A DNA stretch of 64,000 nt. It comes from a bacterium HR29 (GTDB taxonomy: Bacteria > Chloroflexota > Dehalococcoidia > Tepidiformales > Tepidiformaceae). Each line of letters begins with the position of its first letter. Positions within the stretch are counted from its first letter, which is position 1. Positions 13,598-50,553 of the stretch are shown one piece after another. Position numbers and translations under genes: made by a program. The stretch is taken from NCBI GenBank assembly GCA_002898215.1, contig BEIF01000002.1:186001-250000 (forward strand). The letters run 5' to 3'. The notes beneath the pieces were generated by a model. The model did not search any database, was not told where the DNA came from, and saw only the letters and a list, made by a program, of their open reading frames with translations.

Positions 13598-14466
13598 CCC
13601 CTCCGCCGCGGTGACGACGAGCGGGAATCGAGCCGGCCGACGCCAGCCCTACGCCTAGGGCGCGGTGGGTCCAGGCTCCCCGGAGGCGTCGACCTTCCAG
13701 TCGCTGGGAGCGCGCCCTCGAGGGCGTGACATCCGAACCCCTAGCCCTTTGCCAAATGCCAAGCTGGCGAAGGCCGGCACGCGAACGATTCGTTGCGAGG
13801 AGGCCGAGGGCTGGTACGGCCTCGGCGGCACCCCCGGCAGGCGAGCGCCTCTCGGACGCTGGTGAGGTCCACCGCCTGCGGCTTATCTGCCCCGCGCGGG
13901 TGCTCGGCTCGGGCCTCAAAGACATCCGTGGCGGGGAGGGCGGGCGATGCGGGAGCCTGGGGGCGCTCCGCTCCGAACTGATACGCCAATGGTCGCACCT
14001 CGCCGGTGGCCAGCGCTGCGGCTGAACCTGCCGGGCGGAGGGCCGGCGACTCCTGCCGGTTCGCCGGCGAATGGTCGGCCTCCGATGGCCACGCCATCGC
14101 CAGAGGAGGGACCGTATTATTAAAGACCCGACCCCCGGAGAACGTGAGGTCGCCGCACTCGGGGCGACCGACGGAGCGGGGTGGTGCCCTCGCACGGGGT
14201 ACTACCCGCGCGGGCCCCAAAGCGGACCTGGTTCCAGCGGCTTTGCTCCAGGCGGTCACCGATGCCGCGTGCGCGAAGCGCGACGACGCGGAGCAGCTCG
14301 GCATGCACGCTAGCCGTGAGCTCGGTCAGCTCGCCGAGGTCGCAATCTGGCTGCTGCGACGACCCGAACCGTAAGAAGGGGTTCGTCTCGGCCGGCGCGA
14401 CGGTGGGGGCGAACGCTGGCCTCCACCTGCGGAATGAAATTCGTCGGGCCTTCGGGCTCGGGTTCC
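13598..14466. other. long stretch without a supported gene
   Basis: About 870 bp. Several long frames exist on both strands because of high G+C, including a 187-residue one on the minus strand (13741-14304), but none shows a domain, ribosome site or protein-like composition. It is probably decayed sequence upstream of the ACR3 relic. Confidence 0.35.
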
Positions 14467-29061: not shown

Positions 29062-30393
29062 ATGCGGCCGAGAATCAAGGCGGAGGCGAGCGTGCGCCGC
29101 GGAGGCAGGTTGCATCGGCTGCTGCGGCTTCGGTGGGGCGCAGGCACCATCGCCATCGCCTACGTGCTCCTCGGTCTCGGGTGGATCTTCGGCTCCGACG
29201 CTCTCTTCGACGCCCTCTTCCGCGGCGGCATACGGGACGCCGTTGAGCTCGGGAAAGGCGCCGGCTATGTGGCCGTGACGGCGCTCCTCCTCTACGGACT
29301 GATGCGGCGCTCGCTCCGCGCCCTCGAGGACGCGAGCTCGGAGCTGGAACGCGCCAACCGCGAACTTCGGCGGCTCGCCGGCTTTCCCGAATACAGCCCC
29401 CATCCGATCCTGCTCCTTCGTGCAGGCCGGGTCGTTTTCGCTAACGACGCTGCCCGCACGCTCGCCGTGGCTGCCAGTTTGCCCGATGCGTCCTCGTTGC
29501 TCCCTGTCGAGACACGTGAGCTCGCCGCTGCGACCCCGGACGAGGCAGGCTTCGGGTCTTCCCTCGAATCGCGCGTCGGCGACTACGCCATCCGCTGGCA
29601 CTTTTTCGCGAACCCGGACGAAGAACTGGTGTACGCGTACGGTACCGACGTCACTCAAGTGGAGCGGCTAGGAGCGCGGCTCGCGGCTGCCGAACAGGCC
29701 GAGCAGCGCGACCGGATGGTCGCGGGTCTCGCTCACGACCTCCGGAACATGCTCACGGTCGTCCGGGGGTATGCCGAGCTCCTCGCTCCTGCCCTGGCGC
29801 CGAACGATGCTGCTCGCGCCGACGTGGAAGAGATGGTGCGCGCCACGCGGCGCGCCGAGGAGCTCCTGCGCGGGTTCGCCGCTCTGGGCCGTCCGTCGCC
29901 GGGGTCCGCGGCCAGCAGGATCGACCTTGCCGGGGAGCTCGCCCGCCTGGAGCCGTTCCTTCGGCATGCCGTTCCCCACCCGATCGAGCTCGCCGTCGAG
30001 CGGCCCGGTCGACCCCTCCCGGTGGCGCTCGACGGCGGACAGCTGAATCGCCTGTTGTTGAATCTCGTGGTCAACGCCGTCGATGCCATCGGCCAGGGCT
30101 CGGGACGCATCCTCGTCCGCTGTAGTGCAGCGGGCGGTGAGGCTGTCCTCGAGGTCTCTGATACCGGTTGCGGGATGGACGAGGCGACGGTCGCCCGGAT
30201 CTTCGAGCCGTTCTTCACGACGAAGCCGCGCGACAAGGGTACGGGCCTGGGTTTGGTGATGGTTCGGGCCATCGTCGAACAGGCCGGGGGCACGATCTCC
30301 GTCTCCACGAAGCCCGGAGCCGGAACGACCTTCGCCATCCGATTCCCGATCGCGAGCGATGATCGATCGAACCTGACCGCCGAAGAAGCATAG
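29062..30393 (+). CDS. orphan membrane histidine kinase, copy 1
   Basis: A 443-residue sensor kinase. Two membrane helices lie at residues ~28-44 and 68-81. A short helix and a degenerate PAS-like region follow (about 105-200). The H-box is AGLAHDLRNMLTVVRGYAEL (His225), the N-box LLLNLVVNAVDAIG, then VSDTGCGMDE, the F-box FEPFFTTK and the G2 box GTGLGLVMVRAIVEQAGG. The H-box resembles NtrB-type kinases. No response regulator lies next to it. It is followed 91 bp later by a paralogue of the same design, pointing to a local duplication. Confidence 0.85.
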   Translation: MRPRIKAEASVRRGGRLHRLLRLRWGAGTIAIAYVLLGLGWIFGSDALFDALFRGGIRDAVELGKGAGYVAVTALLLYGLMRRSLRALEDASSELERANRELRRLAGFPEYSPHPILLLRAGRVVFANDAARTLAVAASLPDASSLLPVETRELAAATPDEAGFGSSLESRVGDYAIRWHFFANPDEELVYAYGTDVTQVERLGARLAAAEQAEQRDRMVAGLAHDLRNMLTVVRGYAELLAPALAPNDAARADVEEMVRATRRAEELLRGFAALGRPSPGSAASRIDLAGELARLEPFLRHAVPHPIELAVERPGRPLPVALDGGQLNRLLLNLVVNAVDAIGQGSGRILVRCSAAGGEAVLEVSDTGCGMDEATVARIFEPFFTTKPRDKGTGLGLVMVRAIVEQAGGTISVSTKPGAGTTFAIRFPIASDDRSNLTAEEA

Positions 30394-30484
30394 GGAAATT
30401 CGATTTTATTTGGCGCTTTTCGGCCCTTTCCCGCTGGCGGTCCGAGCCTATGCTTCGTCGTGGGAGCGCTAGAAAGGGTAGATC

Positions 30485-31780
30485 ATGGCGGCCAGCGTTC
30501 GAGCATGGCTCGGCCGAATTCAGCGCGAGCAGGCTGTCGGAGCGCACATTCTCGTAGGAATCCTGTGGGTAATAGGCTCAGTTTCCGTAGTGTATGCGAT
30601 GCCGGAAGCGGGAACGCGTGCTTCGGTGTGGCTCGCGAACGGCCTCGCGTACGTGCTCCTGACCGGATTGATGCTCCACGGCCTCGTTCGCCGCTCTCTG
30701 AACGATCTCCGCTCGGCGCACGACGAATTGCTGCAGGCCTACCAGGAAATCGAGCGCTTCGCCACGCTCGCTCGGAGCGCGCCGGAGCCCATTCTCGTCC
30801 TCTCAGCTGGCGGAGAGCTGGAGTACCGAAACGGAGCGGCCGACCGCCTTGTAGCCTCGGCGGGCCTTTCGGGCCCGCTGGAGCTGCTGGGGCCGCAGGG
30901 CCTGGAAGCAGCGCTTCGCACCCTGGGTTCGACCCTACCCTCCACGCCGGTGGAAGTCCGAGTTGGCGAGCGAGTCTTCCATTGGTCTTTCGCCGCTAAC
31001 CGCGAGGTTGGGGTTGTCGCCTGCTTCGGGGCCGATATCACCGCGCTTCGCGAGATGACGGATAGGGCGCTCGAGGCCGAATACGCGGAGCAGCGGGAAC
31101 GCATGTTCGCTGGACTGGCCCATGACCTGCGGAACATCCTCACCGCCGTTCGCGGCTACGCCGACCTGATGTTCCCCGCCCTTCCTCCGGATGACCGGGT
31201 ACGAAGCGACCTCTCGGAGATGATCCGAGCGATCGAGATCGCACACGGCCTTCTGCAGCGGTTCACCGGTGCGTTCCGCCGGTCGGCGCGGCGTGACAGC
31301 GTCATCGACCTCAGGGAGGAAGTGGCAGGAATGGAACCGCTGCTGAAGCACTCGGTGTCGCGGAACGTCGAACTCCGGCTCTCGGTGGAGCGGGAACGTA
31401 TCCCGGTCCGGCTCGACCCAGGGCAGTTGCTCCGCGCCCTGCTCAATCTTGTGTCCAACGCCGTCGATGCCATCGGCGACCAGCCAGGACACATCGACAT
31501 CTCCGTTCGAAGGGAAGTGTGGAACGGAACGCCATACGGGTCTGTTTACGTGACCGACGATGGTTGCGGCATGGATGAAGAGACGCGGGCGCGAGCCTTC
31601 GAAGCGTTCTTCACGACAAAAGATGGCAGAGGGACAGGTCTGGGGCTGACGGCGGTGCGCGGGGTCGTCGAGCAAGCAAGGGGAACGGTGGAGCTGGTCA
31701 GTGCTCCCGGTCGAGGAACCACGGTCGTGATGCGGTTTCCGGTCTCCGCAGCTAGCGAGTCGTCGCCGTCTCTGACCTAG
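30485..31780 (+). CDS. orphan membrane histidine kinase, copy 2
   Basis: A 431-residue paralogue of the upstream kinase. Membrane helices lie at ~20-40 and 46-66, with a PAS-like region at ~95-190 (PEPILVLSAGGELEYRNGAA). The H-box is AGLAHDLRNILTAVRGYADL (His213), followed by the N-box LLNLVSNAVDAIG, VTDDGCGMDE, FEAFFTTK and GTGLGLTAVRGVVEQARG. AAAGGG precedes the ATG, and TATGCT in the unusually A+T-rich spacer is a likely -10, so it can be expressed separately from copy 1. The shared kinase core but different sensor parts suggest divergence in signal. Its stop shares the palindrome CTAG with the convergent downstream gene. Confidence 0.85.
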   Translation: MAASVRAWLGRIQREQAVGAHILVGILWVIGSVSVVYAMPEAGTRASVWLANGLAYVLLTGLMLHGLVRRSLNDLRSAHDELLQAYQEIERFATLARSAPEPILVLSAGGELEYRNGAADRLVASAGLSGPLELLGPQGLEAALRTLGSTLPSTPVEVRVGERVFHWSFAANREVGVVACFGADITALREMTDRALEAEYAEQRERMFAGLAHDLRNILTAVRGYADLMFPALPPDDRVRSDLSEMIRAIEIAHGLLQRFTGAFRRSARRDSVIDLREEVAGMEPLLKHSVSRNVELRLSVERERIPVRLDPGQLLRALLNLVSNAVDAIGDQPGHIDISVRREVWNGTPYGSVYVTDDGCGMDEETRARAFEAFFTTKDGRGTGLGLTAVRGVVEQARGTVELVSAPGRGTTVVMRFPVSAASESSPSLT

Positions 31781-33777: not shown

Positions 33778-35157
33778 TTGTTCGAGCGGCTCCCCCCGCA
33801 CGACCTCGAGGCGGAGGAGGCGGTCCTGGCCGCCCTCCTCGTCGACCCCGAGGCCATCTACCGCGTCGCCTCGTTCCTGAAGCCCTCGGACTTCTTCCGC
33901 GAGTCGAACGGCTGGATCTACGAGGCCTGCCTCGACCTCTGGGCGCGCGATGAGGGCATCAACCAGGTCACCGTGGCCCACGAGCTCGCCCGCAAGGGCC
34001 GCCTCGAGGCTGCCGGGGGGTACCTCTACCTCTCCGAGCTGGTGCAACGGCTGCCCACCTCCGCCGGCATCGAACACTTCGCCCACATCGTGAAGCGCGA
34101 CGCCACCTACCGAGGGCTCATCGGCGCGGCTGCGGCCATCATGCAGATGGCGTACGAAGCCCCACCCGACCTCGATACCGTCTTCCGCCGCAGCGAGGAG
34201 CTCATCGGCCGGTTGCGCACCGGCGAGTCGTTCCGCGACTTCGTCCACATCCGCGAGGTCCTCCAGTCCTACCTCGAAGAGGATGCCGAAGCCGCGGAAC
34301 GTCGACGCCTCGACGCCATCCGCACTGGGTTCCGGGACCTCGACGTGCTCCTGGGCGGGCTGAAGCGCTCCGACCTCATCGTCGTCGGCGCGCGCCCGAG
34401 CGTCGGCAAGTCGAGCTTCGCGCTCGGCATCGCCCGGAACGCTGCCGTCAACGAGCGCGCCAACGTCGCCTTCTTCTCCCTCGAAATGTCCGCCGAACAG
34501 CTCGCCATCCGGCTGCTCTCCGCCGAGTCGAACGTCGACAGCACGCGCCTCCGCCTCGGCCAGCAGACCGAGCTGGAGGAGCGGCGCATCATCCGGGCGA
34601 CCGGTGTCCTCGCCGAGGCGAACATCTGGTTCGACGACTCTCCCGTCCTCTCTGTGGCCGAGCTTCGTTCGAAGGCGCGCCGTCTCGCCGGCGAGCACGG
34701 GCTCGACCTCATCATCATCGACTACCTCCAGCTCCTCCAGGCCGACGGCGTCTACCGTTCGCGCGAGAACCGGGTGCAGGAGATCAGCTACATCTCCCGC
34801 ACGCTGAAGAGCCTCGCCCGCGAGCTGGATGTTCCGGTCATCGCCCTCGCCCAGCTCTCTCGTGCCATCGAGAGCCGGCACCCCCGCATCCCCATGCTTT
34901 CGGACCTGCGCGACTCCGGCTCCATCGAGCAGGACGCCGACATCGTCATCTTCCTCAACCGCGAGGAGCTGTACGTCACGCCGGAGCAGTGGGCCATGCA
35001 GCACCCCGACTTGCCAGAATCCGCCTATCCGAAGGGCATCGCCCAGGTCATCGTCGCCAAGCATCGGAACGGCCCCATCGGGACGATCGAGCTCCGCTTC
35101 AAAGAGCGGTTCGCCAAGTTTGAGGACGTCGCCCTCGTGGAGGAGGAGTCGGCGTGA
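33778..35157 (+). CDS. dnaB: replicative DNA helicase
   Basis: A hexameric 5'-3' fork helicase, about 460 residues. The N-terminal domain starts RLPPHDLEAEEAVLAALLVD. The RecA-like domain has Walker A GARPSVGKSSF, MSAEQLAIRLLS, Walker B LDLIIIDYLQLL, and the arginine-finger region VPVIALAQLSRAIESR with SDLRDSGSIEQDADIV. The frame lacks ATG or GTG near its 5' end. TTG at 33778 is the only standard start but has no ribosome site. A strong AAGGGAGGGAG (33710-33720) instead points to codon ATC at 33727, in frame, adding 17 residues. The stop overlaps the dnaD-like GTG. Confidence 0.93.
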   Translation: MFERLPPHDLEAEEAVLAALLVDPEAIYRVASFLKPSDFFRESNGWIYEACLDLWARDEGINQVTVAHELARKGRLEAAGGYLYLSELVQRLPTSAGIEHFAHIVKRDATYRGLIGAAAAIMQMAYEAPPDLDTVFRRSEELIGRLRTGESFRDFVHIREVLQSYLEEDAEAAERRRLDAIRTGFRDLDVLLGGLKRSDLIVVGARPSVGKSSFALGIARNAAVNERANVAFFSLEMSAEQLAIRLLSAESNVDSTRLRLGQQTELEERRIIRATGVLAEANIWFDDSPVLSVAELRSKARRLAGEHGLDLIIIDYLQLLQADGVYRSRENRVQEISYISRTLKSLARELDVPVIALAQLSRAIESRHPRIPMLSDLRDSGSIEQDADIVIFLNREELYVTPEQWAMQHPDLPESAYPKGIAQVIVAKHRNGPIGTIELRFKERFAKFEDVALVEEESA

Positions 35158-35837
35158 CGGAGCGCTTCGCCGGCTTCCCCGCCATCGCGCGGGCGACGCC
35201 GATCCCGAACATCTTCTTCACGGCGGTTCTTCCGAAGCTCCGCAGCCCGGCGGCGCTCCTCGCCTTCCTCTGGGTGGCGCGCTTCGCCCAGGAGCGCCGC
35301 GGCGCGCCGGCGCTGGTCCCTTTCCGGGTGCTCGCCTCCGATTCGGCGGTGCGCGCCTCCTTCGCACGCCTGGCGGGCTCGGCCGAACTCCTGGCCGAGG
35401 GCCTGAACGAGTGCCTCGAGATGGGCATCCTGGTTTCCGCCGAACTCGAAACCGACGCCGGCCGCGAGCTGTGCTACGGCGTGAACACGCCCCAAAGCCG
35501 CCGTGCGCTCGCCCGAGCCGGGGTGGCGCTGGCGGCCTCGCCGGGGTCGGCCCCGGCCCGGCCCGACATCTTCCGCCTTTACGAAGAGCACATCGGCACC
35601 ATCACCCCGATCGTCGGCGAGCGACTGCTCGAAGCCGCGGAGCGGTACCCTCAAGCCTGGATCGAAGACGCCTTCCGCGAGGCCGCCCTGCGGAACGTCC
35701 GCAACTGGCGGTACATCGAACGCATCCTCGAGCGGTGGGCCGAGGAGGGACGAGCCCATGAAGCAGCTGCGGGAGATTCTTTCGAAGCACGGCGCCGCCG
35801 CTATCTCGGGGGCGCCGCCCCCCGAGGGCTCGGCTGA
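35154..35837 (+). CDS. DnaD-like replication initiation protein
   Basis: 227 residues. The N-terminal part (FAGFPAIARATPIPNIFFTA, LRSPAALLAFLWVARFAQE) matches the winged-helix DnaD_N/RepA-like domain. Residues ~135-195 are a DnaD domain (FRLYEEHIGTITPIVGERLL, WIEDAFREAALRNVRNWRYI, ERILERWAEEG). In Firmicutes DnaD works with DnaB/DnaI proteins to place the helicase at origins and restart sites. The GTG overlaps the dnaB TGA (GTGA). Its 3' end overlaps the next gene by 80 nt, an unusually long overlap. Confidence 0.85.
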   Translation: MTERFAGFPAIARATPIPNIFFTAVLPKLRSPAALLAFLWVARFAQERRGAPALVPFRVLASDSAVRASFARLAGSAELLAEGLNECLEMGILVSAELETDAGRELCYGVNTPQSRRALARAGVALAASPGSAPARPDIFRLYEEHIGTITPIVGERLLEAAERYPQAWIEDAFREAALRNVRNWRYIERILERWAEEGRAHEAAAGDSFEARRRRYLGGAAPRGLG

Positions 35838-37155
35838 GCCGATTCCGGAAGAAGGCCCCGGCGACCCGACCTGTCCCGCTTGCCGCGGCAGCGGGTTCGT
35901 GACGCGCCGCCTACCGCTGGGCGACCCCCGCTTCGGGAAGGCCGAACCCTGCGCGTGTATCCTGCGCGAGAGCGAGGCCGCCCGGCGCGCTCGCCTCGAA
36001 CGCCTGGCCAACCTCGGCTCGCTTGTCCGCTTCCGCTTCGAAACGATGCTTCCCGGCGGGCCGGCCGGCGACGACCCCGCATTCCGTGCTGCTTGGGAAG
36101 CGGCCCGCGCCTACGCCGCCGAACCCTCGGGATGGCTCGTTTTCGTCGGCCCGAGCGGCAGCGGCAAGACCCACCTCGCCGCCGCCATCGTCAACGAACG
36201 CATCCGCCTCGGGCAGCCGGCTCTCTTCATGGTCGTGCCCGACCTTCTCGACCATCTCCGCGCCAGCTACAGCGCCGAGGAGGGCGAGTTGGGGTACACC
36301 GACCTCTTCGAGCAGCTCCGCAACGCTCCCCTCCTCGTGCTCGACGACATCGACGCGGCGGCCGGCACGCCTTGGGCCCGCGAGAAGCTCTTCCAGCTCG
36401 TCAACGCCCGGTACCTCGCCGAGCGTCCGACCGTCTTCACCTCCGGCTCAGACCTGGACGCGCTGGAACAGCGGCTGGCGACGCGTCTGGGAAACCCGCA
36501 GCTCTCCCGGGTTGTGCGGCTCGGCGCCCGGGCGGCCGCGTACCGGCAGGTCGGCGGTATGACGCTCGAACGCCTGCGCACGATGCAGTTCCGCACCTTC
36601 GATGCTCGTCCGGGGGGGCTCCGGCCCGAGGAGCGGGAGACGGTCGAGGCAGCCTTCCGTGCTGCCCTGGCCTACGCCGACGCGCCGCAGGGGTGGTTCG
36701 TCCTTCAGGGCACGAACGGCTGCGGCAAGACGCACCTCGCCGCCGCCATCGCCAACCGCGTCCTCGACCGCGGGGGTGACGTCTTCTTCGCGGTCGTCCC
36801 CGACCTGCTCGACCACCTGCGCAGCTCCTTCGCACCGGGGAACGAATCCGCCTACGACGAGCTGTTCGAACAGGTGCGTTCTGCCGGCCTCCTCGTCCTC
36901 GACGACCTCGGAGCGCACGTCTCCTCGCCCTGGGCGCAAGAGAAGCTGTATCAACTTGTCAACTACCGCACGGTGGCGGCGCTGCCCGCGGTTGTCACCA
37001 CCGATCTCAGCTTCGAGGCCCTTCAGGCGACGCACCCGCGCATCGCCGCCCGTATCTTCGACCCGCATGCGGGAACGGCGGTGGTCATCCTCGCTCCCCA
37101 CTATCGCCTCGGTCGAGCCGCGGCACCTCCGCCGGTGCGCAGGCCGCGGCGCTAG
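35758..37155 (+). CDS. helicase-loader-like protein with two DnaC-type AAA+ domains in tandem
   Basis: 465 residues. A Cys-rich zinc-like motif (CPAC at 39-42, CAC at 65-67) precedes two similar AAA+ domains. Domain 1 has Walker A GPSGSGKTH (131-139), VPDLLDHLRASY and Walker B LLVLDDID (192-199). Domain 2 has Walker A GTNGCGKTH (318-326), VPDLLDHLRSSF and Walker B LLVLDDLG. Both resemble DnaC/IstB/DnaI loaders, which normally carry one domain. GAGGAGGG precedes the ATG. Position after dnaB and dnaD argues for loading DnaB, perhaps as a covalent dimer. The domains differ after Walker B (SGSDLDALEQRLATRLG versus TTDLSFEALQATHPRIAAR), so they may have distinct jobs. Confidence 0.85.
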   Translation: MKQLREILSKHGAAAISGAPPPEGSAEPIPEEGPGDPTCPACRGSGFVTRRLPLGDPRFGKAEPCACILRESEAARRARLERLANLGSLVRFRFETMLPGGPAGDDPAFRAAWEAARAYAAEPSGWLVFVGPSGSGKTHLAAAIVNERIRLGQPALFMVVPDLLDHLRASYSAEEGELGYTDLFEQLRNAPLLVLDDIDAAAGTPWAREKLFQLVNARYLAERPTVFTSGSDLDALEQRLATRLGNPQLSRVVRLGARAAAYRQVGGMTLERLRTMQFRTFDARPGGLRPEERETVEAAFRAALAYADAPQGWFVLQGTNGCGKTHLAAAIANRVLDRGGDVFFAVVPDLLDHLRSSFAPGNESAYDELFEQVRSAGLLVLDDLGAHVSSPWAQEKLYQLVNYRTVAALPAVVTTDLSFEALQATHPRIAARIFDPHAGTAVVILAPHYRLGRAAAPPPVRRPRR

Positions 37156-44718: not shown

Positions 44719-47103
44719 GTGACCGAGCGAGCGCTCGAAGGGTTGGTCGTCGCCGAAATCGCCACCGGCGTCGCCGGCCCCTACGTCGGGCGGCTTCTCG
44801 CCGACCTCGGCGCCCAAGTGGTGAAGGTCGAACCGCGGGATGGCGACCCCGTCCGCCACGAGCCGCCCATGGTCGGCGGAGAAAGCGCCTTCTTCGCCTG
44901 GCTGAACCGGGGAAAGCTCGGCGTCCAGCTCGAAGAGGGAGACCCCCGGCTCGACCGGATCCTCACCCACGCCGATGTGGTGGTGCACGACCGCCGCGGC
45001 CCCGCGGCCGAAGCGCTTGAGGCGAGAGCGCTGGCGCTGCGGCCCTCCGCCGTCGTGCTGTCCCTATCCCCCTATGGTCGAACCGGGGAACGCGCCGGGT
45101 GGCTCACCACGCCGCTCACGGAGTACGCCACCGGTGGGTACCACTACTTCGGCGGGGACCCTGCTCGCGAGCCGATCGCCCTTCCCGGCTACCAGGTGGA
45201 ATTCCACGCGGGTATGCACGGCGCCTTCGCCGTCTTAGCGGGCTACTGGCACGCCGAGCGCACGGGCGAGGGGCAGCGCATCGAACTCTCCCACCAGGAA
45301 GCCATCCTCAGCGACCACGCGTGGCTCACGACCATCTGGACGCACACCGGGCAGGTCCAACGCCGCACGGGTAGCGCCTTCGTTCGCTGTGCCGACGGGT
45401 TTCTCTACCTCTTCCCACTGGTGCCGTATCCGAACCTCTTCGTGCTCATGGAGCGGTTCGACCTCCTCGCCGACGAGGAGCTCCAGCAGCCGCTCGTTTG
45501 GCAGCAGCGCTTCCCCGAGGTACTGGCGGCGTTCGCCGAATGGGCTGCCAACCGGACCCGCGCCGAGGTGTACCACGCCTGCCAGGAGCTGCGCATCGCC
45601 GTCTCGCCGGTGAATACCTTTGCCGACGTCGTGGCCAGCCCGCAGCTCGCTGCTCGGGAGTGGTTCGTCCCGCTCCCCGTGGGCGGCCAAGCCGTGACCG
45701 GGCCGGGCGTGCCCTACAAGCTGAGCGAGACTCCGTGCCGACCCGAAGGCCGGGCGCCGCACCTCGGCGAGCACACCGACCTCGTCCTGGACCAGAATTT
45801 CGCCTGGGCCAACGCCGGCCGCCAGGCGACCGTGGCGGGCGCCGCCCCACGCTCGCCGGCCGGACCGCTCGAAGGGCTCCGGGTCATCGAGGTGACCGCC
45901 AACTGGGCTGGACCCATCGCGGGGCGGCACTTCGCGGACCTCGGCGCGGACGTCATCAAGATCGAGCTCCAGACGAAGCCTGCCACCCGCGCGCTCGTCT
46001 ACGTCGGAGGCGACCTGTGGCCCGAGCACTACCACCGCAGCGGCTACTTCAACAAGCTGAACCGGAACAAGCGGGCAATCTGTCTCGACCTCTCCAAGCC
46101 CTTGGGGAAGGAGACGTTCCTTCGCCTCGTGCGAGTGGCCGACGCCGTCATCGAGAACAACGCTGCCCGGGTCATGGGCAACCTCGGCCTCGACTGGCCC
46201 GTTCTCCGGGAGGCGAACCCTCGGCTCGTCATGTGCTCGATGTCCGGATACGGGGCGACTGGCCCGGAGCGGAACTACAGCGCCTATGGCAGCAACGTCG
46301 AAACGGTGAGCGGGCTCGCCAGCGTCCTCGGATACGGTCCGGGCGAATACTTCGGCACCGGTAGCTACTACGCCGACCCCATCACGGGCACCCACGGGGC
46401 CGTCGCCGTCCTGGCTGCCATCCTTGCCGCGCGGCGCACCGGCCGGGGCCAGTGGATCGATATGGCCCTCCTGGAAGCGGTGCTGCCGTTCTTCGCGCAG
46501 CAGCTCCTGGAGTACACCGTGACTGGCCGCGTCCCCGTGCCCATGGGGAACCGGTCGCCCCGATGGGCACCGCAGGGCGTGTACCCTTCCGCCGGCACCG
46601 ACTGCTGGCTCGCCCTCACCGTCCGCGACGAAAGCGAGTGGCGCGCACTCTGCGGCGTCATCGGACGACCCGACCTCGCCGCCGACCCTTCGCTCGCCTC
46701 GGTGGAGGGTCGTCGAAAGAAGCAGGATGAGATCGACGAGGCTATCGCTGCCTGGTCGCGTACACTCGACCACCTCACCGCTGCGGAGGCTCTCCAGCGC
46801 GCGGGTGTGCCCGCCGCTCCCGTCATGGCGAACTGGGAGATCGTCTGTGACAATCACCTCAACGACCGCGGCTTCTTCGTCAGCGTTCGCCACCCGAAGG
46901 CTGGGACCCACCAATTCCCCGGCTTCCCCTGGCGCTTCGAGCGCACGCCCGCCACGATCCGCTGCCATGCTCCCCTCTTCGCCGAGCACAACCGTGAGGT
47001 CTTCGCCGGCCTTCTCGGGATGACGGACGCGGAGATCGACGCCCTCTACCGCGAGGGCGTCACGGGCGACGTTCCCATCTACGCACAGGGGCCGACGCTG
47101 TGA
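44719..47103 (+). CDS. double CaiB/BaiF-type (family III) CoA transferase
   Basis: A 794-residue protein with two family-III CoA-transferase halves. Each begins with the family opening (LEGLVVAEIATGVAGPYVGR; LEGLRVIEVTANWAGPIAGR, both followed by ADLGA(Q/D)V(V/I)K(V/I)E). The second half has the catalytic-Asp region ADPITGTHGAVAVLAA. In the first half the equivalent segment is QVEFHAGMHGAFAVL, so the Asp appears replaced. Family members are interlocked dimers, and a fused heterodimer with one active half is plausible. It would move CoA between carboxylic acids. The GTG has GGGAGGG upstream. Confidence 0.87.
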   Translation: MTERALEGLVVAEIATGVAGPYVGRLLADLGAQVVKVEPRDGDPVRHEPPMVGGESAFFAWLNRGKLGVQLEEGDPRLDRILTHADVVVHDRRGPAAEALEARALALRPSAVVLSLSPYGRTGERAGWLTTPLTEYATGGYHYFGGDPAREPIALPGYQVEFHAGMHGAFAVLAGYWHAERTGEGQRIELSHQEAILSDHAWLTTIWTHTGQVQRRTGSAFVRCADGFLYLFPLVPYPNLFVLMERFDLLADEELQQPLVWQQRFPEVLAAFAEWAANRTRAEVYHACQELRIAVSPVNTFADVVASPQLAAREWFVPLPVGGQAVTGPGVPYKLSETPCRPEGRAPHLGEHTDLVLDQNFAWANAGRQATVAGAAPRSPAGPLEGLRVIEVTANWAGPIAGRHFADLGADVIKIELQTKPATRALVYVGGDLWPEHYHRSGYFNKLNRNKRAICLDLSKPLGKETFLRLVRVADAVIENNAARVMGNLGLDWPVLREANPRLVMCSMSGYGATGPERNYSAYGSNVETVSGLASVLGYGPGEYFGTGSYYADPITGTHGAVAVLAAILAARRTGRGQWIDMALLEAVLPFFAQQLLEYTVTGRVPVPMGNRSPRWAPQGVYPSAGTDCWLALTVRDESEWRALCGVIGRPDLAADPSLASVEGRRKKQDEIDEAIAAWSRTLDHLTAAEALQRAGVPAAPVMANWEIVCDNHLNDRGFFVSVRHPKAGTHQFPGFPWRFERTPATIRCHAPLFAEHNREVFAGLLGMTDAEIDALYREGVTGDVPIYAQGPTL

Positions 47104-47486
47104 GCGCGCGTGTCCTCGTCGTGGCCGCGCCTGCGGTGGCCGAGCGCTTGGTCGGCGTCCTGCCGGAGGGGGCCGTGTGCTTCGCTGTGGCCCTCGACGG
47201 CGAGGGCGACCCGCTCGCCGGCCTCGGCGATGCCCTTGCCGGGGTCGAAGCGGCTGTCGTGTGTCTCGATGGCCTACCAGGCCGGCTACTCCCCCGCCTC
47301 GAGGATGCGTTGGCTCGGTTCGGTGGCCGCTCCGCGGTCCTGCGGGGGCGCCCCTGGAACGGCGTGGCCCCGCTGCCGCTCGCCCGCGCCTGTACTGCCG
47401 TGGTGGCGGGGTTCGGAGATGTGGCAGCGGCCGCTGCCGTCGTCGCCCGTTGGTGGGCCGAGAGCACTTCAGCCGGCGAGCCGTAG
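47100..47486 (+). CDS. small Ala/Val-rich protein of unknown function
   Basis: 128 residues, starting with GTG that overlaps the CoA-transferase TGA. The pattern of short strands and Ala-rich helices (ARVLVVAAPAVAERLVGVLP, AAVVCLDGLPGRLLPRLEDA) suggests a Rossmann-like fold, but no motif is specific. It could be a shortened short-chain dehydrogenase-like protein. Its 3' end overlaps the convergent DnaA-like gene by 18 nt. No function can be assigned. Confidence 0.55.
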   Translation: MSARVLVVAAPAVAERLVGVLPEGAVCFAVALDGEGDPLAGLGDALAGVEAAVVCLDGLPGRLLPRLEDALARFGGRSAVLRGRPWNGVAPLPLARACTAVVAGFGDVAAAAAVVARWWAESTSAGEP

Positions 47487-48770
47487 CGCGAGCTCTGGCC
47501 TCTCCTCCAACAGGCGGTCGCCGCGGGCTGCCACCTCCTTCACGGTTGCAGCGTCGCGTCCGCCGAGGGCACGTCCGATCGCCGTGTATCCGAGGCCCTG
47601 CCGCCGGAGGAGCGCAGCCGCCACGGCTCGGGCATCGGCCAGCGGCGATCGACGGGAACGCCCCCTCAGCTCCTCCAGCCGGACCGCGAAGGCCGCTGCG
47701 ACGCGCTCGAGGACGGCTTGTGGGTCGGGCGCACCGGAGGTGCGAACCACGATTCGCGCTAGCTCGGCGTCGAGGCGGCCCGGCTCCAGCATCCCCGCGC
47801 GGTCCAGGGCGACCGCCGCGTGCACGGCTCCCTGGAGTTCGCGCACGGAGAGCACCCGCGCGGAGGCGATGCGGTCGATGCACCAGGCCGGAAGCGATGC
47901 CCGGAGCTCCGCTGCCAGCCGCAGGACGATCCCCCGCTGCTCGCCGGGCCCCGGTGGTTGCACCTCGACGACGACGCCAGCCGTCAGCCGTGATGCAAGG
48001 CGTTGGGGAAGCGCGAGGTCCCGAGGGTGGCGCTCCGTGGCCACCGCGACGCTACCCCCTTCCCGCTCCACCGCGTCGATGGTCCGGACCAGCTCCTCGA
48101 GCGTGGCCCGCTTCCCTTCGAGGTCCTGCAGGTCGTCGAGGAGGAAGAGGCGTACGGTACGCAGCTCTTCCTGGAACGCGTCGACCTCTTGGCGGCGGAG
48201 CGCCCCCAGGTACCGGGTGGCGAACTCCTCGCCACTGAGGCAGGCCACCGACCACCCCTTAGCCCGGGCGGCACAGCCGAGGGCATGGAGGAGGTGGGAT
48301 TTCCCCACACCGTTGGCTCCCCACAACACCAGCGGCGACATCGGCCGCTCGTCGGCGAGGAGTGCGCGACAGCAGGCCAGGGCCAACCGGTTCCCCTGGG
48401 ACTCGACGTATCGGTCGAAGGTGAGGCTGCAGTTCACCGCACCGACGAGCTTCGGCCCTCCCTCCGCCGGCCGCGGCTCGCCCGGAGCCTGGGCTGCGCC
48501 GGGAGGCACGAACCGAACCTCCACATCGGCCGCCAGGATGGCCGACGCTGCCCGCCGCACCACCAAGGCCAGCCGCTCGTTCAGCCAAGCGCATTTGAAC
48601 GGGCTTGGCGCTTCCGCCACGAGCGTTGCCCCGTCGAAGGCGAGCGGACGGGTGTCCCGCAGCCACGTCTGGAAGGTGTGTGGGCCGACCTCCAGTTCGA
48701 GCCGCCCCAACACGCTCCGCCAGGTCCGCGCCAGCTCCCGCGAATCCGCCGGCGAAGAGACAAAGGTCAT
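47469..48770 (-). CDS. DnaA-like replication initiator with an altered DNA-recognition signature
   Basis: 433 residues in DnaA order. A domain-I-like N-terminus (FQTWLRDTRPLAFDG) and a short linker precede AAA+ domain III: LTFDRYVESQGNRLALACCR, Walker A GANGVGKSH (151-159) and Walker B LFLLDDLQ. Domain IV includes RSRRSPLADARAVAAALLRR and YTAIGRALGGRDAATVKEV. In DnaA the signature is GGRDH(T/S)TV. Here His is Ala and the next Thr/Ser is Ala, so DnaA-box contacts must differ. It is either this lineage's DnaA or a paralogue. dnaN is not nearby. Confidence 0.8.
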   Translation of the reverse strand: MTFVSSPADSRELARTWRSVLGRLELEVGPHTFQTWLRDTRPLAFDGATLVAEAPSPFKCAWLNERLALVVRRAASAILAADVEVRFVPPGAAQAPGEPRPAEGGPKLVGAVNCSLTFDRYVESQGNRLALACCRALLADERPMSPLVLWGANGVGKSHLLHALGCAARAKGWSVACLSGEEFATRYLGALRRQEVDAFQEELRTVRLFLLDDLQDLEGKRATLEELVRTIDAVEREGGSVAVATERHPRDLALPQRLASRLTAGVVVEVQPPGPGEQRGIVLRLAAELRASLPAWCIDRIASARVLSVRELQGAVHAAVALDRAGMLEPGRLDAELARIVVRTSGAPDPQAVLERVAAAFAVRLEELRGRSRRSPLADARAVAAALLRRQGLGYTAIGRALGGRDAATVKEVAARGDRLLEERPELALRLAG

Positions 48771-49033
48771 CCCCCACTGCTCCTTTCACGCAGCAGCAAG
48801 AACGGAACCGTCTCCGGTCGATGCGAGAAGTTCGCTCTGTCCTTGGCCGGGCGGCGGAGGGCCCGGTGGTGTGCCCCGTACCTTAGCCGCGCTGCCACCC
48901 CTCGGCAACGCTCTTATGTGGAAGGAGGGCCCCTCCTCAGCCGTTTTTCACGCGGACCAATCGTTATGGCGCCGCACCCCTCCTCATCACGAAACGTTGA
49001 CGCACACGTCAAGGTTGGTAGACTGGGCTGGAG
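48771..49033. other. intergenic region between the DnaA-like and MerR genes
   Basis: About 260 bp, divergent. It holds the MerR operator at its right end. No convincing cluster of DnaA boxes or A+T-rich unwinding element was seen, so I do not call an origin. Confidence 0.4.
48997..49024 (+). promoter_or_regulatory. autoregulatory promoter/operator of the MerR gene
   Basis: TTGACG-CACA-CGTCAA (48997-49012) is a perfect 6-bp inverted repeat whose left arm is also the -35. TAGACT (49019-49024) is the -10, 9 nt before the ATG. The repeat placement is typical for MerR-family self-control. Confidence 0.6.
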
Positions 49034-49513
49034 ATGCCCGAGTCCCGCTCCACCCTGGAAGGGTACCTGCAGATCGGCGAGGCCGCGGAGCGCTGCGGCC
49101 TCACCCAGCGCACCCTGCGGTTCTACGAAGAGAAAGGGCTCCTCAAGCCGCCGACTCGAATGGAGGGCGGGTTCCGCCTCTACTCTCCGGAGGACCTCGA
49201 ACGGATCGAGCGCATCAAGCAGCTCAAGGAGCTCCTCGGCTTCTCCCTCGCGGAGATCAAAGAGCTGCTCGACGCCGAAGACGTCCGTCTCCAGATCCGC
49301 GCCGAATGGCGCAAAGACGCCGACGTCGCCGAGAAAGCCGCGAAGATCCGTCAGGCCCGTGAGGCGACGCTCCGCCAGCTCCAGCTCGTCGACCAGAAGA
49401 TGGAGCGGCTCGCCGAGTTCCGCCGCAGCCTCGCCGAACGACTGGAGAAGTACGATCAGTGGCTCCGCGAGCGTGCCGGCGAAGGAGCGTCCGCTCCCGA
49501 AACCGGCCGATAG
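49034..49513 (+). CDS. MerR-family regulator (TipA/BmrR-like N-terminus, coiled-coil tail)
   Basis: 159 residues. The winged helix spans ~14-60 (LQIGEAAERCGLTQRTLRFY, YEEKGLLKPP, GGFRLYSPEDLERI), followed by IKQLKELLGFSLAEIKELLD. A long coiled coil of Lys/Glu/Arg (EAATLR-type, about 85-150) follows. There is no ligand domain and no cysteine cluster, so it is not a metal MerR. It may respond to stress, or a second protein may bind the coiled coil. The operator directly upstream suggests autoregulation. Confidence 0.83.
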   Translation: MPESRSTLEGYLQIGEAAERCGLTQRTLRFYEEKGLLKPPTRMEGGFRLYSPEDLERIERIKQLKELLGFSLAEIKELLDAEDVRLQIRAEWRKDADVAEKAAKIRQAREATLRQLQLVDQKMERLAEFRRSLAERLEKYDQWLRERAGEGASAPETGR

Positions 49514-49533
49514 GCTCCCGCGGGCATATCCGG

Positions 49534-49539
49534 TACACT
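49534..49539 (+). promoter_or_regulatory. -10 hexamer of leaderless moaA
   Basis: TACACT, 6 nt before the GTG start. Same hexamer and spacing class as other leaderless genes here. Confidence 0.5.
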
Positions 49540-49545
49540 CCTTCC

Positions 49546-50553
49546 GTGGCCCTCCTCGACGAGCTTCAGCGCCCCCTCCGCGACCTCCGCATCTCCGTAA
49601 CCGACCGCTGCAACTTCCGCTGCGTGTACTGCATGCCCCGGTCGGTCTTCGGACCCGGCTACGAGTTCCTCCCCCGAGCGGAGCTGCTCACCTTCGAAGA
49701 GATCGCCCGCGTGGCCCGCGTTGCCGCCGAACTCGGCGTGCGCAAGGTTCGCATCACCGGGGGCGAGCCCCTCCTGCGCAGGGACCTCGTTCGCCTGGTG
49801 GAAATGCTCGCCGCCATCCCTGGGGTTGACGACCTCACCCTCACCACCAACGGAGCGCTCCTGCGCCAGTACGCCCGCCCCCTTGCCGACGCAGGGCTGA
49901 AGCGCGTGACGGTGAGCCTCGATTCCCTCGATGACGCCATCTTCCGAGCGATGAACGACGTCAACGTCGGCGTCGATGTCGTGCTCGAAGGCATCGCCGC
50001 CGCCCTGGAGGCAGGCCTCTCCCCGGTGAAGGTGAACGCCGTCGTGAAGCGGGGTGTCAACGACCACACCATCGTCGACCTCGTCCGTTACTTCCGTGGC
50101 ACGGGCGTGGTCGTCCGCTTCATCGAGTACATGGACGTCGGCACCACCAACGGCTGGCGGCTCGACGACGTCGTGACCGCTGACGAGATCCTCGCCCGCA
50201 TCGCGGCGGAGTTTCCCTTGGAGCCGGTGGAGCCGGCCTACCCGGGCGAAGTCGCCACCAGGTGGCGGCTCCGCGACGGCAGCGGCGAGGTCGGCATCAT
50301 CGCCTCCATCAGCCGCCCGTTCTGCGGAGGATGCACCCGCCTCCGCCTTTCGCCCGAAGGCCAGCTCTTCACCTGTCTCTTCGCGGCGCGCGGCCACGAC
50401 ATCCGCGCCCTCCTCCGCAGCGGCGCCAGCGACGCCGACCTCCGCGCCTTCATCGAACGCGTCTGGAGCGGGCGCACCGACCGCTACTCGGAGCTCCGCT
50501 CGGCCGAGACGGTGGGGCTGCCCCGGGTCGAGATGTCCCGAATCGGGGGGTGA
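49546..50553 (+). CDS. moaA: GTP 3',8-cyclase (molybdopterin biosynthesis)
   Basis: A 335-residue radical-SAM enzyme. The first 4Fe-4S cluster motif is CNFRCVYC (Cys22, 26, 29), followed by VRITGGEPLLRRDLV and the substrate cluster CGGCTRLRLSPEGQLFTC. The C-terminal Gly-Gly (SRIGG) is needed for catalysis. It makes the first molybdopterin intermediate from GTP. The GTG at 49546 follows TACACT (49534-49539) by 6 nt and the frame has no better start, so the message is probably leaderless. moaC is not visible. Confidence 0.93.
   Translation: MALLDELQRPLRDLRISVTDRCNFRCVYCMPRSVFGPGYEFLPRAELLTFEEIARVARVAAELGVRKVRITGGEPLLRRDLVRLVEMLAAIPGVDDLTLTTNGALLRQYARPLADAGLKRVTVSLDSLDDAIFRAMNDVNVGVDVVLEGIAAALEAGLSPVKVNAVVKRGVNDHTIVDLVRYFRGTGVVVRFIEYMDVGTTNGWRLDDVVTADEILARIAAEFPLEPVEPAYPGEVATRWRLRDGSGEVGIIASISRPFCGGCTRLRLSPEGQLFTCLFAARGHDIRALLRSGASDADLRAFIERVWSGRTDRYSELRSAETVGLPRVEMSRIGG

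Follow-up and report, generated by a model that had tools for sequence, protein, structure and literature searches.

The window analysed here, 64,000 nucleotides from the genome of bacterium HR29 (Tepidiformaceae, Dehalococcoidia; contig BEIF01000002.1, positions 186,001 to 250,000), encodes a DnaA-like protein in which an alanine takes the place of the histidine that contacts the DnaA box. This raises the question of whether the lineage replicates from an origin with different boxes, whether the protein is a paralogue beside a canonical DnaA, or whether the sequence is in error. The gene lies on the minus strand at positions 47469-48770 and encodes 433 amino acids with domains I, III and IV. 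As the earlier note had read it, the recognition helix starts with GGRDAATV (residues 403-410, about positions 47541-47564, minus strand), and alignment places Ala407 at the position of E. coli His434 and Ala408 at that of Thr435. The sequence Asp-His-Ser/Thr at the recognition helix, which we take to be the signature of DnaA, is therefore absent from the window protein. The Pfam domains DnaA_N, Bac_DnaA and Bac_DnaA_C were found in this order, each above its gathering score. An AlphaFold model of the protein had a mean pLDDT of 89.9, and 8btg (B. subtilis DnaA, the best match) and 1l8q ranked first among its fold matches in the PDB. Despite its full length the protein scored only 222.6 bits against the NCBIfam equivalog TIGR00362 (cut-off 343.9), which gives a measure of its divergence. 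The deviant Walker A sequence GANGVGKSH (residues 151-159, about positions 48294-48320, minus strand) was confirmed as well, but this deviation is minor: the consensus glycines, Lys and His are retained, G151, G154, G156, K157, H159, D212 and D213 of Walker A/B are invariant in 26 sequences, the ATPase motifs are intact, and the variant falls within the variation of the family, whose consensus is GPPGxGKTH. No second DnaA was found in the window genome (2.34 Mb, 4 contigs, 97% complete); its two other PF00308 matches are the two AAA+ domains of a helicase loader encoded at 35503-37155. By domain order, motifs, fold and uniqueness the window protein is a DnaA, one that departs from the signature at the His and falls short of the equivalog cut-off.

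To the earlier note, a canonical GGRDHTTV copy elsewhere would have made this gene a paralogue, and His in close relatives would have pointed to a sequence error. Neither was found. In an alignment that omits G014 (no His; an unreadable stretch disrupts its frame) and the partial G038, and that counts a canonical copy from G008 among the non-family sequences, His434 is absent from all 32 family DnaAs (Arg in 15, Lys in 12, Ala in 3 and Pro in 2) and present in 19 of the 22 others of the class. This is far beyond chance and shows that GGRDAATV is not a sequencing error. Across bacteria, 78 of 80 DnaAs gathered via a Walker A pattern have His at this position, the two exceptions being L088, a member of the family of the window DnaA, and L118, from the Dehalococcoidales. 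A canonical dnaA was met within the family only in G008, where a canonical dnaA-obgE contig (L067, contig C35) accompanies another obgE (C15) and a diverged dnaA (C9); the canonical contig is probable contamination. In G060, a second match taken for a dnaA paralogue was rejected, as its reading frame looks like that of a transposase. With nothing found in favour of either, a sequencing error and a paralogue accompanying a canonical DnaA are refuted within the limit of a 97% complete genome, and we consider them barely credible.

The loss of His434 is one of several changes in domain IV. With the DNA-contact residues numbered as in E. coli, following the available text of PMC5043019, Arg399 is retained in 31 of the 32 family DnaAs and Arg407, Arg432 and Thr436 in all 32. 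The Gln408 position carries small residues in 32/32 and the Leu438 position polar residues or Pro in 31/32, while His439 is found in 0/32, versus 15/22 in the rest of the class. Asp433 is kept in 21/32, and the alignment shows one residue missing before helix 4. Bac_DnaA_C scores range from 24 to 54 bits in the family versus mostly 53 to 110 bits in 24 other families of the class (61 relatives), and the family DnaAs form one clade with a long stem and a support of 100/100 in a tree whose bootstrap had not fully settled. The retained residues suggest that the grip on DNA would be kept via Arg399 in the minor groove and via Arg407, Arg432 and Thr436, and that the residues replaced family-wide are the major-groove readers of the CCACA half of the box, His434 above all, together with the Gln408, Leu438 and His439 positions.

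The place of the ancestral origin can be read from the rest of the class. There, obgE lies downstream of dnaA in 17 of 23 loci with a gap of 132-614 bp; exact canonical boxes, spaced by about 21 bp in several cases, are present in 8 of the 17 gaps. This adjacency and these boxes locate oriC between dnaA and obgE in the class. At least two TTRTNCACA within 500 bp occur at 7 of 24 dnaA loci of other families of the class and at 25 of 79 dnaA loci elsewhere (6/37 in a mostly Chloroflexota subset), and at none of the 32 family loci. The search for DnaA boxes that the earlier note had proposed placed canonical boxes at background level in the family: 8 family genomes carry between 0 and 9 exact copies of TTATNCACA each, level with a reversed control. 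In the window genome the exact word occurs 3 times, versus 1 in the reversed control, and forms no cluster; a dense cluster of near-boxes in this genome (C3:1-4386) proved to be a CRISPR array. It follows that a near-neutral loss of the His, after which DnaA would still bind boxes near TTATCCACA, is highly improbable. The retained fold and R399 agree with such a loss, but the box counts equal to the control, the missing clusters at dnaA and the word at the likely origin described below, every copy of which has 4 or more mismatches to TTATCCACA, speak against it.

Nor does the origin of the window genome appear to lie at dnaA. The region between dnaA and the divergent merR gene (48771-49033), which had been put forward as target DNA for domain IV, contains no canonical box, no CGTTGG-type site and no repeat cluster. 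An origin at dnaA or in this region was rejected for the lack of boxes of either type and of a skew switch, and the origin of relatives lies away from dnaA. Nor is dnaN adjacent to dnaA: about 49 kb separate the two, and dnaN falls just beyond the edge of the window.

A candidate for the rewritten box emerged in G029, from a Tepidiforma-like genus (g14), in which obgE lies at 543.9-545.1 kb and dnaA at 941 kb. Upstream of obgE, at 545.174-545.340 kb, seven copies of CGTTGG are found within 166 bp, four on one strand and three facing them, with steps of 9, 22 and 33, then 21 and 11. When repeated 7-mers were counted without bias, this array came up as the first cluster other than a tandem repeat. 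The longer word CGTTGGRWW occurs 11 times in 814 kb of G029; 6 of these sites fall in the 300 bp upstream of obgE, and outside the array no 300 bp carries more than one. The lowest-GC 50 bp (0.48) of the 10 kb around (within 5 kb) abuts the array. Read in the usual sense, each copy has at least 4 mismatches to TTATCCACA. Three other candidates in G029 were rejected: an AT-rich stretch just after dnaN, which resembles a coding gene of foreign composition; a 7-bp GCTCCCA array at 576.3 kb (L168:8341-8800), which is a tandem repeat of about 66 copies; and CGTTGG sites upstream of dnaA as elements of autoregulation, which are near background (10 in 14.4 kb).

As the G029 cluster itself had supplied the word CGTTGGRWW ahead of the counts, independent evidence for it comes from other genomes and from position only. 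We searched 38 family genomes for paired sites, defined as two CGTTGGRWW within 30 bp, and found them in 8, with 0 in all 38 for the reversed control. Five of the six g14 genomes have exactly one cluster each, adjoining obgE; in the sixth, G034 (72% complete), no match to obgE was found. Outside this genus, paired sites lie 60 bp (G027) and 57 bp (G003) upstream of obgE, a looser pattern adds G024 with sites 58 bp upstream, and the pair match of G019 lies away from obgE. The array beside obgE is thus seen in g14 and in three genomes of two other genera. Measured in 8 genomes, the pair nearest to obgE is 57-74 bp away in all but G032, where the distance is 190 bp; the chance of a random place falling within 200 bp upstream of obgE is about 6 in 100,000.

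The position of the array on the chromosome was compared in the three complete g14 genomes (2.743, 2.747 and 2.768 Mb). Measured from the array in G029, G013 and G032, dnaA lies at +396, -353 and -432 kb, rpoB at +845, -792 and +816 kb, and 16S at -949, +928 and -946 kb, while dnaN is 32-55 kb away. In 9 of 9 cases dnaA, rpoB and 16S are directed away from the array, even after a change of arm. Such matched distances, swapped arms and outward direction are expected of inversions about an origin. GC content in G029 peaks near 0.55 Mb and is lowest near 1.8-1.9 Mb, as for an origin and a terminus. An oriented repeated word, an AT-richer strip and a position on the axis, the features looked for in an oriC, are hence found together at the G029 site. 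The array might instead be an operator through which another regulator, unrelated to DnaA, controls obgE and the divergent gene, with the true DnaA boxes elsewhere. A divergent promoter region and a constant distance of 57-74 bp from obgE in 7/8 genomes are what an operator would predict; seven copies in two facing arrays are nevertheless many for an operator, and the array occupies the place of oriC in the class, on the axis of the mirrored genes and against the lowest-GC strip. We therefore consider the operator improbable and the array a likely origin.

The strand asymmetry of G029 has an unusual form. Its GC skew is a smooth wave, which a sinusoid fits far better than two levels (RSS 0.45 versus 1.27 over 161 bins; 0.044 versus 0.114 over 20 evenly spaced stretches), and it crosses zero close to the array and again at about 1.83 Mb. 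With the array taken as the origin, 19 of the 20 stretches (L068-L087, L168-L187) have a C-rich leading strand, and there is no sharp switch. By the same measure the skew of E. coli switches within 10 kb at oriC and has the opposite sign; in G049, a Dehalococcoidales-like genome, the best change point is at dnaA, and the sign of G029 is again opposite. Of all the observations, this inverted, gradual skew is the chief one that a simple retargeting of DnaA does not account for. Fully dispersed initiation in the Tepidiforma-like genus, at first favoured on the smooth skew, was lowered by the array and the mirrored gene positions.

We then compared residue 434 with the word found at obgE. Among the genomes in which both the DnaA residue and the position of obgE could be read, a CGTTGGRWW pair at obgE is present in 7 of the 10 that have Lys434 and in none of the 19 that do not (Fisher 8e-5), a tally uncorrected for kinship in which five of the seven positives belong to one genus, which inflates the association. 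The tally leaves aside G003 (no DnaA recovered), G030, G034 and G017 (no obgE match), and G010, G014, G018, G023 and G061, and the zeros of most g13 genomes come from the paired-site search. No pair at obgE was found in the Lys434 genomes G016 and G007, the latter having one site 253 bp upstream, nor in G009, which has Lys after Ala.

The claim that the origin of this lineage uses different boxes accordingly finds support in the Lys434 relatives, with CGTTGGRWW at obgE, and falls short in the window genome, where no cluster of this word is seen (49 sites versus 38 in the control); G012 has no such cluster either. The obgE of the window genome (C2:19335) is directly preceded by another gene, with no upstream gap. 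In the gap on the far side of that gene, 1.17 kb upstream of obgE, three copies of GGGGAATC at 11-bp intervals fall within about 35 bp (L245:18165-18200, C2). Such triplets of any 8-mer number 10 in about 419 kb, and we estimate at about 0.03 the probability that one falls within 1.2 kb of obgE. GGGGAATC is a weak candidate for the origin box of this genome.

These genomes also bear on the view that DnaA has lost its reading of DNA altogether. DnaA would then mark no single origin in the window genome and some relatives, replication would start at many or drifting places without DnaA boxes, and DnaA might persist for regulation or in a minor role, as in several cyanobacteria. A cluster of canonical boxes or of CGTTGGRWW is missing from both the window genome and G012, whose GC skew is nearly flat in the parts sampled, residue 434 varies between Arg, Lys, Ala and Pro, the smooth skew of G029 fits a sinusoid, and a precedent for irregular skew with DnaA-oriC independence is described in the accessible part of PMC7198777. 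On the other hand 33 of the 37 family genomes yielded a dnaA, the conservation of its AAA+ domain matches that seen elsewhere in the class (mean entropy 1.36 versus 1.38), one axis at one conserved site is seen in G029, G013 and G032, and the absence of clusters concerns two words only. On balance we judge such a loss unlikely, though the most serious of the alternatives considered.

For the family, different boxes remain the best reading, and DnaA and its boxes were probably retargeted together; our confidence is lower as regards the exact word in the window genome. The window DnaA would be the sole working initiator of its lineage, with domain IV retargeted, and would still oligomerise on ATP. 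The gene dnaA would have moved away from oriC and obgE, its ancestral neighbours, while oriC, with its boxes rewritten, would have remained upstream of obgE. In the Lys434 relatives the box may be CGTTGGRWW (WWYCCAACG in the canonical sense), DnaA would bind the seven CGTTGG, which form two arrays facing each other and are spaced by roughly one, two and three turns of the helix, and the AT-richer strip adjoining the array would serve as the unwinding element. In the genera with Ala, Arg or Pro, including the window genome, yet another box is probably in use. We infer the binding of the array by DnaA, the identity of the array as oriC and the extension of this scheme to the window genome; the loss of the His across the family, the single dnaA, the absence of canonical boxes and the conserved array at obgE with its place on the replication axis are observed. 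More tentatively, and somewhat short of an even chance, the re-coding may be continuing within the family, with dnaA detached from oriC, the box word differing between genera and following residue 434, and a second, independent shift in the Dehalococcoidales; this wider proposal takes in the inverted, gradual strand asymmetry of the Tepidiforma-like genus, which may mean that more of the biology of initiation and of the fork has changed.

The candidate for that second shift is found in two Dehalococcoidales-like DnaAs, those of G049 and L118, which lack the His (GGRSASTV and GGRSPATI) and whose dnaA-obgE gaps are free of canonical boxes. The gap of G049 contains four TTAT[AC][GT]AAA words (L220, about 13820-14000), the densest cluster in 400 kb, and that of L118 two similar words 20 bp apart (about 1975-2000). 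These AGTTATNRAAA-like words keep the TTAT half of the box and have the CACA half replaced, in agreement with the retention of Arg399 and the loss of His434. From these words we regard G049 and L118 as a possible second box shift in the class. The likeness to the window family lies in the missing His and the missing canonical box; unlike that of the family, dnaA remains here beside oriC and obgE. G041 and G044, whose DnaAs are His-less or altered members of the class, also have no canonical boxes in the dnaA-obgE gap, and yielded no new word.

With the canonical DnaA-oriC system of E. coli and B. subtilis the family shares the domain layout, the Walker A/B, Arg-finger and sensor II regions, the helix-turn-helix fold and a box array beside an AT-richer strip, the array lying upstream of obgE at the place of oriC in the class. 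It differs in the loss of His434, in a word at least 4 mismatches away from TTATCCACA and in a dnaA off the origin. The nearest precedent is Thermotoga maritima, whose DnaA also lacks the Asp-His dyad (SHPVVV region, 2z4r alignment). According to the review PMC4285127, in the portion available, it alone of the origins analysed has boxes more than 2 mismatches from TTATCCACA, its box being AAACCTACCACC; a 9-mer box, ACCTACCAC, is given in the available part of PMC10316083. The best G029 copy, AAACCCAACGGC, differs from the T. maritima 12-mer at 4 places. T. maritima, however, is an unrelated lineage, whereas the change described here extends over one family in a class with canonical DnaA, so that before and after can be compared. 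The cyanobacteria with DnaA-oriC-independent replication share an irregular or flat GC skew and a dnaA away from the classical origin; the accessible part of PMC7198777 reports no changed domain IV for them, and here a single axis and a conserved array are seen in three genera. In the open-access literature, as far as its text was available, on Tepidiforma DnaA, on the origins of Chloroflexi and Dehalococcoidia, on obgE-dnaA in Dehalococcoides and on unusual boxes, we found nothing that matches.

The DnaA box is among the most conserved protein-DNA codes of bacteria. If the proposed retargeting is true, the family lets one ask how an essential initiator changes its recognition word while keeping its origin, since both halves of the pair have changed, canonical relatives exist in the class and members are in culture (cultured Tepidiforma are described in the available part of PMC10284905). 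Origin finders that rely on dnaA, dnaN and TTATCCACA will miss such origins.

Finally, the surroundings of dnaA in the window were annotated. Divergent from it lies a MerR-family regulator (49034-49513, plus strand; profile match), followed by a MoaA-like radical SAM gene (49459-50553, plus strand) that is also near dnaA in several relatives, including G008; on the other side is a two-domain CoA-transferase-like gene (44719-47103, plus strand), and G008 is arranged likewise. About 11 kb from dnaA, a cluster at 33778-37155 on the plus strand contains dnaB, the replicative helicase (33778-35157), and a gene for a DnaD-domain protein (35154-35837), both recognised by profile matches, and that of a tandem two-AAA+ DnaC/DnaI-like helicase loader (35503-37155 as the ORF is listed, the true start being likely further in). 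This loader is the protein that the earlier note had counted as a second unusual replication protein, and proves to be a tandem DnaC-like loader within a dnaB-dnaD-loader cluster. Long CRISPR arrays with a 36-bp repeat occupy two contig ends of the window genome (L250:1-4386 on C3 and L245:1-500 on C2), and such an array probably broke the assembly at both. Two similar sensor histidine kinase genes lie in tandem at positions 29062-31780 of the window.
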